64,000 nucleotides of DNA from Streptomyces antnestii. Lineage in GTDB: Bacteria; Actinomycetota; Actinomycetes; Streptomycetales; Streptomycetaceae. The notes below the pieces were generated by a model, which was given only the letters and a program-made list of their open reading frames with translations, was not told the origin of the DNA and ran no database searches. This document shows, piece after piece, positions 35,413-42,118 of the stretch. Made by a program: the position numbers and the translations under genes. The stretch is taken from the NCBI RefSeq assembly GCF_004005495.1, contig NZ_RZYA01000002.1:434001-498000 (forward strand), in the 5' to 3' direction. Positions within the stretch are counted from its first letter, which is position 1. The number at the start of each line of letters is the position of its first letter.

Positions 35413-36519
35413 TCAGGCATCGATCACCAGGTTCTCCAGCGGAGTGGAGCAGCACAAGAGGATCTTGTTCTGGGCCCTGTCCCTGGGACGGAGGCCGCCG
35501 TTGTCCCGCATGTCGACCGACCCCTTCTCCAGAGTGGTCACACAGGAACCGCACAGGCCCTGCCCGCACGAGGAGGGGAGCGTGATGCCCGCACGCGCGG
35601 CGGCGTCGAGCACCGGCACGCCGGCCTCGCACTCGATGGTCGTCCCACTGCGGGACAGCGCCACGGAGAACGTGGTGCTCGCGCCCGGATCGGCCGCCCC
35701 TGCCGGAGCGGCCGGGCCCGTGAAGCTCTCCTGGTGATACCGGTCCTCCGGCAGGCCGGCCGCGGAGAGCAGCCGACGGGCCGCGTCCATGTATCCCGCC
35801 GGACCGCACACGAACACCTCCCGCGCCAGGAAGTCGGGGGCGACCCGCAGGAGCACGTCGGAGGTGAGACGTCCGCGCTCCCCGGCCCACCCCGCCACCG
35901 CCCCGTCGGCCTCGCAGACGTGGATGACGCGCAGGCCCGGCGCAGTCGCCGCCAACACCTCCAGCTCACGCCGGAAGGGGATGTCCTCGGGGGTGCGTGC
36001 GCTGTGTACGAAGATCACGTCCGCCGGGGCGGCCCCGTCATGGAGCGCCCGCGTCATCGACATCAGCGGTGTCACCCCGCTGCCGGCCGACAGGAACAGA
36101 TAGGCGGGTGCCGGATGCCGTGCTGTCGAGAAGTCGCCGAACGGTCCTCGGGCCCGGACCGCTCTGCCCGGCGCCAGGTGGTCGTGCAGCCAGTTCGACA
36201 CCAGGCCGCCGGGGACACGTTTAACGGTGATGGCGAGCGTGCCGGGCCGCGTCGGGGGTGACGAGATCGTGTAGCAGCGGACCGCCTCCCGGCCGCCGAC
36301 GTCGAAGGTGAACGTCAGGTACTGGCCCGGGTCATGAGTCCCCGGACCGGACCCCGGACCGGCCGGTTCGAAGGCGAAGGTACGCATGTCGTGGGTGACG
36401 TCCTCGAACCCGGTGCACACCAGCACGTGTTCGGGCGCACCCTCCTGGGGTCCGCCGTCCGCACCGGCATTGGACGACGCGAGGGATTCCGGGCCGGGCC
36501 GGGCCAGCATCTCGGTCAA
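35413..36519 (-). CDS. Ferredoxin-NADP-reductase-type subunit of the Rieske demethylase (GbcB-like)
   Basis: 368 residues from a TTG that overlaps the Rieske gene's stop (TTGA), with GAGGAG upstream; an ATG at 36510 is an alternative. FAD motif RCYTISSPP, NAD motif SAGSGVTPLMSM, VFVCGPAGYMDAAR, and a C-terminal plant-type 2Fe-2S domain SSCGQGLCGSC...LLCCS. It passes electrons from NAD(P)H through FAD and Fe-S to the Rieske partner encoded just upstream. Order and fold are those of GbcB and related reductases. Confidence 0.9.
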   Translation of the reverse strand: MTEMLARPGPESLASSNAGADGGPQEGAPEHVLVCTGFEDVTHDMRTFAFEPAGPGSGPGTHDPGQYLTFTFDVGGREAVRCYTISSPPTRPGTLAITVKRVPGGLVSNWLHDHLAPGRAVRARGPFGDFSTARHPAPAYLFLSAGSGVTPLMSMTRALHDGAAPADVIFVHSARTPEDIPFRRELEVLAATAPGLRVIHVCEADGAVAGWAGERGRLTSDVLLRVAPDFLAREVFVCGPAGYMDAARRLLSAAGLPEDRYHQESFTGPAAPAGAADPGASTTFSVALSRSGTTIECEAGVPVLDAAARAGITLPSSCGQGLCGSCVTTLEKGSVDMRDNGGLRPRDRAQNKILLCCSTPLENLVIDA

Positions 36520-37784
36520 CGCTGCAACTCCTCGCTCAGGCGGGCCAGATACCAGGCGCAGAACGCCTCGACCTGGTACTCGCCGGGGGCGTACGGGCCC
36601 GGTTCGTAGGCCGGGCCACCGACACCCTGCTGGGCGCGCGCGACGAGCCGGGCGTCCTGTTCGTTCGTCGCGGTCCACACCTTGAGCAGGGTGTCCCGGT
36701 CGTAGTCCACACCCTCCTCGGCCTCCGGATGGACGAGCCACGTGGTGCGCAGGAGCGTCTTGTCCGGGGTGAGCGGCAGAACGCTGAACGTGATCGCGTG
36801 GTCGCCCACGACGTGGAACCACGCGTTGGGCTGCATGTGCAGGGACAGGTGTCCCAGGCGCGGAGTCGGCAGATCCCCGAGGCGGCGGCGGCACGCGGCC
36901 GTGCCGTCCGGGGTGAAGGACTCGCCGGCCAGGTCGAGCGCGTCGCGCTGGATGCGGAACCCGGTGGGGCGTTCCGCCAGTTCCTCGATCAGGCCGTACG
37001 GCAGGCCGAGCCCGGTGTACGTGGCGCGCATCTCGGCGTCGGCCCGCAGGTAGCGCTCGTGCGCCGGGCGCAGCCGCGCGGGGACGTCCGCCTCCGTGTA
37101 GCCGTAGGTGGGGAAGAACGTGCGGAGCAGTTCGGGGTGGCCGTCGCAGTGGTAACACTCGCGGTTGTTCTCCATCACGAGCTTCCAGTTGCCGTCCTCG
37201 ACGAGCTCCGTGCGTGCCGCGACCCTGGTCCGGCGCAGGTCGTGGGGGAGGAGGTAAGGCTCGATACGGGAGGCGACCTCGTCGAAGTCCGCCGGGGGAC
37301 GTTCGGCGAGGCAGATGAACACGAGCCCGCCGACACCACGCACGTGCACGGGCTTCAGGACGAAGCAGGAGCGGTCGAAGTCCGCGGCCTGGGACGGCGC
37401 GTGCAGCAGCGAGCCGTCGGTCGCGTACGTCCACTTGTGGTAGCCGCAGACGAGGTTGCCGCCCGACGCCTGTCCCGGGTCGAGGAGCCGGGCGCCGCGG
37501 TGCCGGCACACGTTGTGGAACGCCCGGAGCCCCTCGTCGTCGTCACGCAGCACGATGACGGAGTACGGGCCGAACTCCACGGTGGTGCGGTCGCCCGGCT
37601 CGGGCAGGTCGGCTTCCACGGCCACGAAGATCCACTGCCGGGCGAACACCGCCTCGATGTCGAAGTCGAAGAAGTCCCGGTCGGTGTAGAAGGGGCCGTC
37701 GAGGCTGTGGCCCGCCCTGCGTGCCGCCACCGCGTCCGAAATCCGTTCCTGTGCGGGGGAGATGATGCCTGTCCGCGTGGTCAC
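36516..37784 (-). CDS. Rieske non-heme iron oxygenase, betaine N-demethylase type (GbcA-like)
   Basis: 422 residues from GTG (GAGGAGAG upstream). Rieske motif CRHRGARLL...CGYHKWTY (CxH-17-CxxH) at about 90-115; mononuclear iron site in VMENNRECYHCDGHPELL (two His), with a distal Asp. This arrangement is that of glycine betaine and stachydrine demethylases. The enzyme removes an N-methyl group as formaldehyde using O2 and electrons from the GbcB-like reductase. Whether the substrate is glycine betaine, proline betaine or carnitine-like cannot be told by eye. The neighbouring OYE enzyme and the sox operon fit successive demethylations. Confidence 0.88.
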   Translation of the reverse strand: MTTRTGIISPAQERISDAVAARRAGHSLDGPFYTDRDFFDFDIEAVFARQWIFVAVEADLPEPGDRTTVEFGPYSVIVLRDDDEGLRAFHNVCRHRGARLLDPGQASGGNLVCGYHKWTYATDGSLLHAPSQAADFDRSCFVLKPVHVRGVGGLVFICLAERPPADFDEVASRIEPYLLPHDLRRTRVAARTELVEDGNWKLVMENNRECYHCDGHPELLRTFFPTYGYTEADVPARLRPAHERYLRADAEMRATYTGLGLPYGLIEELAERPTGFRIQRDALDLAGESFTPDGTAACRRRLGDLPTPRLGHLSLHMQPNAWFHVVGDHAITFSVLPLTPDKTLLRTTWLVHPEAEEGVDYDRDTLLKVWTATNEQDARLVARAQQGVGGPAYEPGPYAPGEYQVEAFCAWYLARLSEELQR

Positions 37785-37838
37785 TTCGCTCTCCTCTCGT
37801 CGCTGCGGATGGGCCGGTCGTCGCTGCGCCTCTGCCGG

Positions 37839-39884
37839 TCAGACGGACCGGCAGAGCCGCAGCGCGTCCAGCACCGCGGCATGGATGTTGCGGCTGGTGA
37901 CGGCGTCACCGATCCGGAACAGCTGATACGTGCCCTGCGGGTTGCCGGCCGTGCGCTGCGGCCGGCCGGCGAGGAGGGCGTCGTGGTCGACCTCGCCGAG
38001 GTTGCTCGAACCGGGGAGCAGATCCCAGTACAGATCGGCGTGGGGCAGCGTGCCGTGCTCCACCACCACGTGGTCGACGGTGCGCTGCACCTCCCTCTCC
38101 GCGTACTCGCCGCGCAGCGTCGCGGACAGCCGCCCGCCTTCCGCCCGGCGTACGGACACGAGCCGGTGGGTCAGCGTGGTGCGCACGTCGTGTTCCGTGA
38201 ACACCCGTAGATAGGCAGGGGAGTTCATGCTGCCGACGTCGGGGGCGAGGGTGCGCTCGGGTGTGACGTACTCGACGGCTATGCCCTGACGGGCCATCAC
38301 CTCTACGGCGTCCAGTGCGGGGTAGGAGCCGTTGTCGTCGTAGACCAGCACGCTGCCGCGCGGGCGCAGGGTCCTGCCGAGGACGTCCCAGGTGTCGGCG
38401 ACGAGTCCGGCGCCCTCGGTGAGGAACGACGTGTCGGGCAGGCCCCCGGTGGCGATCAGGACGATGTCGGGGTGCTCGGCGCGGACGTCGGCGGCCTCGG
38501 CGGGCGTACCGAGCCGCAGCTCGACACCGAGGGTCTTGCACTCGTCGACACGCCAGTCGACGATGCCGAGCAGATCGCGCCTGCGGGGGTTGGCGGCGGC
38601 GATGCGCAGCTGGCCGCCGGGCTGGTCGCCCGCCTCGAACAGGACGACGTCGTGCCCGCGCTCGCCCAGGACGCGGGCCGCTTCGAGGCCGGCGGGACCC
38701 CCGCCGACGACCACCGCCCGACGGCGCTCGGCCGCCCGCGCGACCGTGTGCGGCAGGGTGAGCTCGCGTCCCGTGGAAGGATTGTGGACACACTTGGCGT
38801 CCCCGGACGCGTAGATGGCGTCGAGACAGTAACTCGCGCCCACACACGGCCGGATGCGGTCCTCCGCCCCGGCGGCGACCTTGGCCACGAGGTGCGGGTC
38901 GGCCATCTGCGCCCGTGTCATCCCGACCAGATCGAGCAGCCCCTCCCGCACGGCGTGCCGGGCGGTGGCCACGTCGGCTATCCGGGCCGCGTGCATCACC
39001 GGGACGCCGAGGCGGCGCCTGACCTCCGCGGTGAAGTCGAGGAACGGCGCCGAAGGCGTGCCCATGGACGGGATCGCCCTGGCCAGGGCCGCGTCACTCT
39101 CGATCGTGCCGCGGACGGTGCTGACGAAGTCGATGCCGTCCTCGACGTACCGACGGGCCGCCGCCAGCGCGTCCTCGAAGATGAGCCCGTCCGGCCGGTC
39201 CTCGTCCAGCGACATCCGGATACCCACGACGAACCCGGGCCCCACCGCCGACCTGATCGCGCGGATCACCCGCCGGGGGAAGGCGGTCCGGTTCGCGAGA
39301 CCGCCGCCGAGCGCGTCCTGCCGCCGGTTCGTCGCCGGAGACACGAACCCGTCGAGGAAATGGCCGTACGACTGGATCTCGATGCCGTCGAGACCGCCCG
39401 CCTCACATCGCGCGGCGGCGTCCGCGTAGTGCCGCACGATCCGGTCGAGGTCCCAGGGCTCGGCCTCTTTCGGGAACGCGCGGTGCGCGGGCTCCCGCAG
39501 CGGTGACGCCGCGAGCACGGGCAGCCAGTCGCCCGCGTAGTTGCTGGTGCGCCGCCCCAGATGGGTGACCTGACACATGACCGCGGCCCCGGCCTCGTGG
39601 ACGTCGTCGGAAAGGCGGCGCAGCCACGGCACCACCTCGTCGCGGTAGAGCAGCAGGTTGCCGAAGGACGGCGGACTGTCGGGCGACACGACGGCCGAGC
39701 CGCCGATCATGGTCAGGCCGACCCCGCCCCTGGCCTTCTCCAAGTGATACGCGCGGTAGCGGTCCTTGGGCAGGCCGTCCTCCCCGAAAGCCGGTTCGTG
39801 CGACGTGCTGACCACCCTGTTGCGCAGGGTGAGGTCTTTGATCGTGAAGGGCTGCAGTAAGGGATCCGACGCTCGCGTAGGCAT
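37839..39884 (-). CDS. Old-yellow-enzyme/trimethylamine-dehydrogenase-type demethylase (StcD/DgcA-like)
   Basis: 681 residues from MPTRASDPLL; a GTG at 39917 is an alternative and no clear ribosome-binding site is seen. Residues 1-350 form an FMN TIM barrel (LLQPFTIKDLTLRNRVV, HLGRRTSNY, GLDGIEIQSYGHFLDGFVSP). Next is a cysteine cluster RPCVGASYCLDAIY...KCVHNP, then an FAD/NAD domain (AVVVGGGPAGLEAARVLGERG). TMADH holds a 4Fe-4S centre with CxxCxxxCx11C; here the second Cys is Ala, CVGASYC. It is first of an operon with the Rieske pair (54-bp gap) and likely removes a methyl group from N-methylproline or dimethylglycine. Confidence 0.85.
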   Translation of the reverse strand: MPTRASDPLLQPFTIKDLTLRNRVVSTSHEPAFGEDGLPKDRYRAYHLEKARGGVGLTMIGGSAVVSPDSPPSFGNLLLYRDEVVPWLRRLSDDVHEAGAAVMCQVTHLGRRTSNYAGDWLPVLAASPLREPAHRAFPKEAEPWDLDRIVRHYADAAARCEAGGLDGIEIQSYGHFLDGFVSPATNRRQDALGGGLANRTAFPRRVIRAIRSAVGPGFVVGIRMSLDEDRPDGLIFEDALAAARRYVEDGIDFVSTVRGTIESDAALARAIPSMGTPSAPFLDFTAEVRRRLGVPVMHAARIADVATARHAVREGLLDLVGMTRAQMADPHLVAKVAAGAEDRIRPCVGASYCLDAIYASGDAKCVHNPSTGRELTLPHTVARAAERRRAVVVGGGPAGLEAARVLGERGHDVVLFEAGDQPGGQLRIAAANPRRRDLLGIVDWRVDECKTLGVELRLGTPAEAADVRAEHPDIVLIATGGLPDTSFLTEGAGLVADTWDVLGRTLRPRGSVLVYDDNGSYPALDAVEVMARQGIAVEYVTPERTLAPDVGSMNSPAYLRVFTEHDVRTTLTHRLVSVRRAEGGRLSATLRGEYAEREVQRTVDHVVVEHGTLPHADLYWDLLPGSSNLGEVDHDALLAGRPQRTAGNPQGTYQLFRIGDAVTSRNIHAAVLDALRLCRSV

Positions 39885-40133
39885 GGCGCCAGCGTGGCGC
39901 CCGTCCGGCCTCGGCACAATCAAGGGAAGTTCGACGAAATCGTGCGAACCGCCTCCACGATCAACAGCCGTCGCCCCTCTTCCCGGGACGCCCGACGCCT
40001 GCTAGCCGACCGCGGATCAAGCGATCGGGGGCAAGCAATCCGGATCAAGTAATCCAGATCACACCGCCGGGGTGTCACAGCCCGGCCGGGCGCGGCGTCC
40101 AGTGTCCGACAACCGTCGAGACCAGGAGGAAGC
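39885..40133. promoter_or_regulatory. Divergent control region between the demethylase operon and the ECF41 pair
   Basis: 249 bp without a gene. Holds direct repeats AATCCGGATCA (40037-40047) and AATCCAGATCA (40051-40061), 14 bp apart, just before the ECF41-type promoter at 40073-40099. Confidence 0.6.
40073..40099 (+). promoter_or_regulatory. ECF41-type promoter
   Basis: TGTCACA at 40073-40079, exactly 16 bp, then CGTC at 40096-40099. This equals the consensus I recall for ECF41 targets (TGTCACA-N16-CGTC). It precedes the oxidoreductase and sigma factor genes, implying autoregulation. Confidence 0.85.
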
Positions 40134-41234
40134 ATGAAGGTCGTGGTGGTGGGCGCCGGCTACGCGGGGACGATCGCGGCGAACCGGCTGGCCAGGAAGG
40201 TGCCGGGAGCGGAGATCACGATGGTCAACCCGCGCCCGGAATTCGTCGAACGCGTACGGCTGCACCAGCACATCGCCGCGAGCGGCGCGGTCGCCACGCC
40301 GCTGACCCGGATGCTGGGCGACGGCATCCGGGTGCACCAGGGCACCGCGGACAAGATCGGCGACGGCACCGTCACCCTCACCGACGGCGAGAGCCTCGAC
40401 TTCGACCACCTGTTCCTCGCCGTGGGCAGCACCGTCGTACCCCTGCTGGGCTCGATCCCGATCGGGACGTGGGAAGGGGCGGAACAGGCGCGTGAGGCGC
40501 TGACCCGGCTCCCCGACGGCAGTCGTGTCACCGTCGTCGGCGGCGGACTGACCGGCATCGAGACCGCGGCCGAGATCGCCGGGTCCCGCCCCGCCCTGAG
40601 CATCCGCCTCGTGGCCCAGGCGATCGCCCCGAGCCTGTCGGCGGGCGCGCGGGCCCGGGTGCGTACCGCTCTGGACCGCTTCGGCGTGGACGTCGTGACC
40701 GACACGGTCACGGAGGTGGCGGACGGGGGCGGCCCGGAGAACGGCAAGGGTGTGGTGCGTCTGAGCTCCGGAGCCGAACTCGACACGGATCTCACCCTGT
40801 GGGGAATCGCGGCGAGCGTGCCCGACCTGGCCGCGCGCAGCGGCCTGGAGGTGAACGCCGAAGGCCGCGCACTGGTCGACGAGTTCCTGCGCAGCGTGAG
40901 CGATCCCCGGATCTTCGTCATCGGTGACTGCGCCGCCGTTCCGGGCGCGCGGCTGTCCTGCGCCACCGCCATGCCGCAGGGCGCGCACGCGGCGGACACG
41001 CTCGCCCGCATCGTCAAGGGCCGTACGCCCGAGCCGTATTCGATGAGCTACGTCGGACAGGCTGTCAGCCTCGGCCGGCGCGACGGACTGCTGCAGGTCA
41101 GCCGTCGCGACGACACGGTGAGGCGACTGTACGTCTCAGGGCGCGCCGCGGCCCTGGTCAAGGAAGGTGTGTGCCGGGTCGTGAAGTACGGTGCCAGGAC
41201 TGCTAATTACGCGTGGCTGCCGGGGAAGAAGTGA
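40134..41234 (+). CDS. FAD-dependent NAD(P)H oxidoreductase (NDH-2-like) linked to an ECF41 sigma factor
   Basis: 366 residues; ATG with AGGAGG upstream. FAD motif VVVVGAGYAGTIAANRLA, NAD motif VTVVGGGLTGIETAAEIAG, and FVIGDCAAVPG near the C-terminus. It resembles type II NADH dehydrogenases and AIF-like proteins, without an obvious membrane helix. Its stop overlaps the sigma factor's GTG (GTGA). ECF41 genes are typically next to an oxidoreductase or carboxymuconolactone decarboxylase-like partner, which this is. Substrate unknown. Confidence 0.9.
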   Translation: MKVVVVGAGYAGTIAANRLARKVPGAEITMVNPRPEFVERVRLHQHIAASGAVATPLTRMLGDGIRVHQGTADKIGDGTVTLTDGESLDFDHLFLAVGSTVVPLLGSIPIGTWEGAEQAREALTRLPDGSRVTVVGGGLTGIETAAEIAGSRPALSIRLVAQAIAPSLSAGARARVRTALDRFGVDVVTDTVTEVADGGGPENGKGVVRLSSGAELDTDLTLWGIAASVPDLAARSGLEVNAEGRALVDEFLRSVSDPRIFVIGDCAAVPGARLSCATAMPQGAHAADTLARIVKGRTPEPYSMSYVGQAVSLGRRDGLLQVSRRDDTVRRLYVSGRAAALVKEGVCRVVKYGARTANYAWLPGKK

Positions 41235-42118
41235 CCGACGTACCGAAGCCGATGGATGTCTTTACGTCCCACCGGCCGCTGTTGTTCTCGATCGCCTACG
41301 AGATCCTGGGGTCGGTGGCCGACGCCGAGGACGTGCTGCAGGACAGCTATCTGCGCTGGCAGACGGTGGACGAGACGTCCGTGAAGAACCCGCGGGCCTA
41401 CATCGCGCAGATCGTCACGCGCCAGTCGCTCAGCGCCCTGCGGTCGGCCGCCCGCCGCCGGGAGGAGTACGTGGGGCCATGGCTCCCCGAACCCCTCGAC
41501 ACCGACCCGAACCGGGCACCCGACGGCGTCACCCACCTGCTCACCGGCGAGGCCGTGACCACGGCGATGCTGCTGGTGCTCGAATCCCTGACGCCGACCG
41601 AGCGGGCCGTGTTCGTCCTGCGCGAGGTCTTCGACTTCGGCTACGCGGAGATCGCCGCCGCGGTGGGGAAGTCCGAGCCGGCGGTGCGACAGGTCAACCA
41701 CCGCGCCCGGAACCACGTGCACGCGCGGCGCCAGGTGGCGGTCGCCGCGCCGAAGGAGGCACAGTCGGTCGCCGAGCGGTTCATGGTCGCGGCGGCAACC
41801 GGTGACGTCCAGTCACTCATGGACGTGCTCGCCCCCGAGGTGGTGTTCATCGGTGACGGCGGCGGCAAGGTGACGGCGGTGATGCGGCCCGTGCGCGGGG
41901 CCGACAAGGTGGGCCGCCTTGTCCGGGGCCTGCTGGAGAAGGGGGCGCGGATGGGCGAGGTCGACGTGCGCGTGGGCGTGTACAACGGGATGCCCGCGGT
42001 CATCGGCCTGCTCGACGGAGAGCTCGATCAGGTGACCTGCATCGAGGTGCGCGGCGGCCTCGTCACCGCGCTGTACTGCACGCGGAACCCGGACAAGCTC
42101 AAGGCCGTACGGATCTGA
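41231..42118 (+). CDS. ECF41-family RNA polymerase sigma factor with fused SnoaL-like domain
   Basis: 295 residues from GTG at 41231, coupled to the oxidoreductase. Sigma region 2 (AYEILGSVADAEDVLQDSYL) and region 4 (LTPTERAVFVLREVFDFGYA) are followed by a C-terminal domain of about 110 residues. The ECF41 signatures WLPEP (linker) and DGGGK (C-terminal domain) are both present. In this family the fused domain regulates the sigma factor itself, with no separate anti-sigma. A matching promoter lies ahead of its operon. The signal sensed is unknown. Confidence 0.94.
   Translation: MTDVPKPMDVFTSHRPLLFSIAYEILGSVADAEDVLQDSYLRWQTVDETSVKNPRAYIAQIVTRQSLSALRSAARRREEYVGPWLPEPLDTDPNRAPDGVTHLLTGEAVTTAMLLVLESLTPTERAVFVLREVFDFGYAEIAAAVGKSEPAVRQVNHRARNHVHARRQVAVAAPKEAQSVAERFMVAAATGDVQSLMDVLAPEVVFIGDGGGKVTAVMRPVRGADKVGRLVRGLLEKGARMGEVDVRVGVYNGMPAVIGLLDGELDQVTCIEVRGGLVTALYCTRNPDKLKAVRI

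Follow-up and report, generated by a model that had tools for sequence, protein, structure and literature searches.

The window analysed here, a stretch of 64,000 nucleotides (64 kb) from the 8.93-Mb, 71-contig genome of Streptomyces antnestii, carries two overlapping plus-strand genes. The upstream gene (40134-41234) encodes a 366-residue FAD/NAD(P)H oxidoreductase and is preceded by the ribosome-binding site AGGAGG (40124-40129). The downstream gene (41231-42118, 295 residues from a GTG start) encodes an ECF41 sigma factor of the SigJ type with a SnoaL-like C-terminal extension. A pattern search placed a -35 element, TGTCACA (40073-40079), and 16 bp after it a -10 element, CGTC (40096-40099), on the same strand, 34 bp before the oxidoreductase start codon, in agreement with the ECF41 consensus (PMC3426412). 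The original prediction had claimed an exact TGTCACA-N16-CGTC target promoter before the two genes and an overlap between them by GTGA; the promoter was recovered at 40073-40099, and the overlap of the sigma GTG start with the oxidoreductase stop codon lies at 41231-41234. Divergent minus-strand genes (35413-39884) have their intergenic region in common with the ECF41 promoter. This set includes a ferredoxin-reductase-like region, a Rieske oxygenase that resembles glycine betaine monooxygenase GbcA, and an OYE/FadH oxidoreductase of the mycofactocin type. The latter two fall short of their model cut-offs, with 398 bits against 670 for GbcA and 476 bits against 793 for OYE/FadH.

Comparison of the sigma protein with Pfam revealed Sigma70_r2 and Sigma70_r4_2 domains above cut-off, and no match to Pfam SnoaL was reported at E 0.001. 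The SigX4 and SigJ models cover nearly the whole protein, with scores above the curated cut-offs (TIGR02957, 345 bits against 323; PRK09636 SigJ, 322 bits against 271). The nearest solved protein is Mycobacterium tuberculosis SigJ (PDB 5xe7, E 9e-55, residues 16-296), which is similar over its full length, SnoaL-like domain included, a likeness of architecture only. The protein contains the ECF41 linker motif YVGPWLPEP (41468-41494; PMC3426412, PMC7730460), a DGGGK motif in the C-terminal extension (41855-41869), and an NPDKL motif near the C terminus (42086-42100; PMC7730460), all on the plus strand. Several features that define ECF41 factors are present: sigma2 and sigma4 domains, a SnoaL-like extension of about 100 residues, YVGPWLPEP and NPDKL, and a neighbouring CMD, oxidoreductase or epimerase gene, here the Pyr_redox_2 oxidoreductase. 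The predicted ECF41 assignment is thus supported by the curated models, the SigJ structure match and the motifs; of the latter, WLPEP and DGGGK had been named beforehand, and NPDKL is an addition.

The oxidoreductase was identified as a Pyr_redox_2 protein in a domain search. Its best solved-structure matches are FSP1/AIFM2 (E 4e-21), followed by the NDH-2-like YjlD. With these NAD(P)H quinone oxidoreductases it has its fold family and its FAD/NAD(P)-binding regions in common, at low similarity. Because these are the closest solved structures, it can reasonably be guessed that the enzyme reduces quinones with NAD(P)H.

Within the window, 40073-40099 is the sole TGTCACA-CGTC match on either strand when spacers of N14-18 are allowed. 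Dinucleotide shuffles of the window gave a mean of 0.21 matches, with at least one match in 20 of 100 shuffles, and the motif alone is therefore weak evidence. What makes the promoter assignment convincing is that the motif lies 34 bp ahead of the start codon, taken together with the outcome of the genome-wide scan. A whole-genome scan for further TGTCACA-N16-CGTC promoters, proposed with the original prediction, returned three exact copies (reversed-pattern control, 2), each just upstream of a COE gene, the ECF41-type targets. Besides the copy before the oxidoreductase-sigma operon, one lies at C31:500180, 2.2 kb beyond the window end, before a carboxymuconolactone decarboxylase (CMD) gene, and the other at C7:222319 (L009) before a second CMD gene. 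The genome encodes three ECF41-like paralogues with at least 49% identity, so more than one candidate sigma factor exists for each of these promoters. The promoter beyond the window end (L011, G000 C31:500157-500206) is canonical and carries a full palindrome, of the kind described below, at spacing 9; no ECF41 sigma gene was found within 1.5 kb on either side of it.

In gene content and core promoter, the window locus is a textbook ECF41 unit of a kind already known. In a survey of 373 ECF41 proteins, the order >COE>>ECF> occurred in 107 loci, 97 of which had TGTCACA-n16-CGTC before the COE gene; transcription start sites were mapped in two species, and the COE gene was the sole target detected (Wecke et al. 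2012, PMC3426412). The window unit resembles these in its gene order, its core before the COE gene, its WLPEP linker and C-terminal extension, and its lack of a neighbouring anti-sigma gene. It differs from them in that its closest orthologues have a CATC -10, and in an upstream palindrome; the text of that study mentions no palindrome, Crp or activator.

Orthologous operons were compared from Streptomyces, Nocardia, Microtetraspora and Actinocorallia (oxidoreductase 59-71% identical, sigma factor 69-75%). The operon is patchy, with an oxidoreductase match at E 1e-100 in 17 of 393 same-genus genomes. In same-genus orthologues the core has the form CGTCACA-N16-CATC and lies 35 bp before the start codon. 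At the aligned position, the orthologues mostly carry CGTCACA or CATCACA-N16-CATC, and TGTCACA together with CGTC was found within the closest orthologue set only in the window and in L052. The consensus core claimed in the original prediction is thus exact in the window but not typical, and on this comparison is unusual for the operon type. The sigma alignment was searched for a residue that would explain CGTC versus CATC at the -10, and none was clear. Two orthologous loci depart from the common layout. In Nocardia miyunensis (L055), the sigma gene beside the oxidoreductase has lost an internal stretch corresponding to query residues 68-259, and in Streptomyces sp. ASQP_92 (L048) an intact promoter with an intact palindrome is found 149 bp, rather than 35 bp, before the start codon.

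The orthologues have a further conserved element upstream of the -35, a GTGA-N6-TCAC palindrome (e.g., GTGATGCAGGTCAC), separated from it by 10 bp in Streptomyces and by 0 bp in several Nocardia. The original prediction had the ECF41 factor, the redox operon and the target promoter of the operon itself right, but it took control to reside entirely in the core promoter, and overlooked both this palindrome and how exceptional the consensus core is among orthologues. To survey its occurrence, 80 loci picked by oxidoreductase similarity, not by motif, were combined with the window and one same-genus orthologue, and reduced to 50 promoters by dropping near-identical ones; a palindrome was called at 7 or more of the 8 bases. 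Over the range of spacings from 0 to 30, such palindromes occurred in the 50 promoters only at 0 (8 promoters), 4-5 (3), 9 (3), 10 (21) and 11 (4). Spacings of 0 or 9-11 thus account for 36 of the 50, against a mean of 0.06 and a maximum of 1 in 2000 shuffle trials. The palindrome therefore has a fixed position relative to the core promoter, with 0 and 9-11 dominant and a 4-bp subgroup, and its consensus is GTGA(C/T)GC(A/G)(G/C)(G/A)TCAC. About a quarter of the promoters are without it, among them that of the CMD gene at C7:222319 in the source genome.

The same arrangement was recovered by searching genomes for the composite of palindrome and core. With TGTCACA-N16-CGTC and spacings of 0-20 allowed, 100 genomes gave 15 matches, 12 of them at spacing 9; with spacings of 0-30 allowed, a draw of 394 genomes, which had 1 of its 13 matches in common with the first draw, gave 10 at 9-10. 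Replacing the -10 by CATC gave 7 matches in 100 genomes, all at spacing 10, and TGTC gave 13, mostly at spacing 4. A scrambled -10 (CTGC) gave no match in 100 genomes, and the reversed controls of the composite pattern gave none in every case. Since the spacing of 4 in the TGTC subgroup differs from both 0 and 10 by half a turn of the helix, strict helical phasing fails. The genes behind the composites encode CMDs, epimerases, DoxX proteins, FAD-linked oxidases, FSP1-like oxidoreductases and ECF41 sigma factors themselves (the epimerase, DoxX and oxidase names were read from protein sequences, not from a family search). With such unrelated genes downstream, the palindrome travels with the ECF41 promoter and not with one gene, which led us to reject the idea of an operator local to a single gene family.

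In the window, the site is present in a degenerate form, GTAATCCAGATCAC (40049-40062), which matches the palindrome at 7 of 8 bases, with GTAA in place of GTGA, and ends 10 bp before the -35; most orthologues have the full site. The 64 kb contain 21 such matches of 7 of 8 bases, and the chance of one falling at a favoured spacing (four spacings) is about 0.001. The window palindrome looks like a weakened form of the conserved site beside a stronger core, and may be inactive. As it is degenerate beside a consensus core, the window copy may depend less on it. A general trade-off between core and palindrome strength, suggested by the window locus, was dropped, as other promoters (e.g., L078) are full in both. 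The divergent intergenic region also contains three tandem plus-strand copies of CAAGYRATC at exact 14-bp steps (40018-40026, 40032-40040 and 40046-40054), overlapping the degenerate palindrome; these repeats were not seen by eye in the orthologous promoters compared.

CRP sites of class II and class I are classically centred at -41.5 and -61.5. With a transcription start assumed 8 nt after the -10, the centre of the palindrome is predicted at about -41.5 for spacing 0, -51 for spacings 9-10 and -61.5 for spacing 20; spacing 4 is outside the class II/class I position series. The Rex site is GTGAA-N4-TTCAC, and Rex was set aside as a binder, as C/T and G/A occupy the flanking positions here. 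The palindromes fit the Streptomyces Crp motif GTG(N)6GNCAC as it is quoted, from Gao 2012, in PMC10033298. The Streptomyces Crp (SCO3571) and GlxR regulons are the nearest known systems for the palindrome, and the source genome encodes a Crp (recognition helix SRETVNKAL) that is close to M. tuberculosis CRP (3i54), GlxR (4byy) and the fragment 2pqq. The genome encodes ten proteins with a cNMP-binding domain, and Crp is therefore not the sole candidate binder. The stringent site GTGAYGCRSRTCAC has 5 matches in the source genome, compared with 2 for the control, and is not clearly enriched. At L148 and L007 (G000 C43:523469-525848), about 1.3 kb separate crp from a gene for a SigJ-like ECF sigma factor.

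From these comparisons, we consider it probable that the ECF41 operon of the window is autoregulated and that promoters of its type also receive input from a CRP-family regulator. RNA polymerase with the ECF41 sigma factor would start at TGTCACA-N16-CGTC and produce one transcript for both the oxidoreductase and the sigma factor, which, made through translational coupling, would provide positive feedback. Control of the operon by its own sigma factor is probable from the >COE>>ECF> arrangement. The likely sensor, taking the place of an anti-sigma factor, would be the SnoaL-like domain at the C terminus, which packs against the YVGPWLPEP linker. The palindrome, usual at its fixed distance upstream of the -35 in actinobacterial promoters of the ECF41 type, would most likely be bound by a CRP-family protein, for which we infer activation and not repression; the regulator would contact the polymerase and couple the redox response to cAMP or carbon state. 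The case for CRP-family input appears strong by comparison across promoters, and weak for the window copy. Whether actinobacterial ECF41 promoters are generally two-input, with the sigma factor and a fixed-distance CRP-family regulator both required, is a generalization that we regard as plausible, though leaning slightly to the doubtful side.

Two other accounts of the palindrome were weighed against CRP-family input. The locus may be a plain ECF41 unit, in which sigma factor and core are the whole control and the degenerate palindrome is idle in the window. The full consensus core and the mismatched palindrome would suit such a unit, and the ECF41 promoters of B. licheniformis and R. sphaeroides responded to sigma overexpression, with no second regulatory protein found (PMC3426412). 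Against this, the residual palindrome sits at exactly the 10-bp spacing kept by the orthologues, a coincidence as improbable as calculated above, and we view a plain unit as a doubtful but real possibility. It is unlikely, although still to be taken seriously, that the palindrome is instead a conserved operator for a repressor, or for a CRP/FNR-family member other than Crp. The ten cNMP-binding-domain proteins offer candidates for such a role, the inner bases GC-R-S are conserved though the published Crp consensus does not demand them, and the lack of enrichment of the stringent form in the source genome points the same way. However, the motif agrees with GTG(N)6GNCAC and is met again in several families of Actinobacteria, and a close Crp is encoded here.

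Two further possibilities carry little weight. In this strain, the CAAGYRATC repeats (40018-40054) might act as the true operator in place of the CRP-like site, perhaps serving either the divergent OYE/Rieske operon or the ECF41 operon. Their exact 14-bp steps and their apparent restriction to this promoter among those compared speak for it, but they could be a simple duplication and no regulator was identified, which makes this improbable. The palindrome could also be read as a pair of extra ECF41 -35 boxes, forming an extra landing site or a divergent promoter for the same sigma factor, since GTCAC is common to each half and the -35. A -10-like tetramer 16 bp after either half was found in 0 of 41 sites, compared with 39 of 41 for the true core, and the conserved A of the -35 follows the right half in only 8 of 41. 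Duplicate -35 boxes were rejected on these counts as highly improbable. CRP-family input to an autoregulated ECF41 operon is the reading we retain.

A link between Crp and ECF41 promoters was not found in the open-access literature searched on ECF sigma factors and CRP. The text of PMC7730460 does not mention Crp, and in the RIViT-seq paper E. coli CRP and an ECF41 paper appear in the references only. What the comparison appears to add to the known picture is that most of these promoters bear a CRP-like site, conserved and at a precise spacing. ECF41 is among the widespread groups of ECF factors, and the signal that activates it is still being sought. If a CRP-family site is standard, ECF41 regulons may need a second input that was lacking in laboratory tests, and the search for the signal would gain a handle in cAMP or carbon state together with the ligand of the SnoaL domain. 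ECF41 with its palindrome would then be a candidate case of an activator acting with an ECF sigma factor. Were both inputs generally required, these promoters would define a class of CRP-assisted ECF promoters and place ECF41 redox genes under cAMP or carbon control.

Among distant relatives, six loci (L104, L106, L108, L111, L112 and L114) have TGTCAG(G/T/C)-N16-CGCT-like cores that are likewise preceded, at a distance of 10 bp, by a GTGA-N6-TCAC palindrome. The link between palindrome and core may thus extend to a further ECF subgroup.
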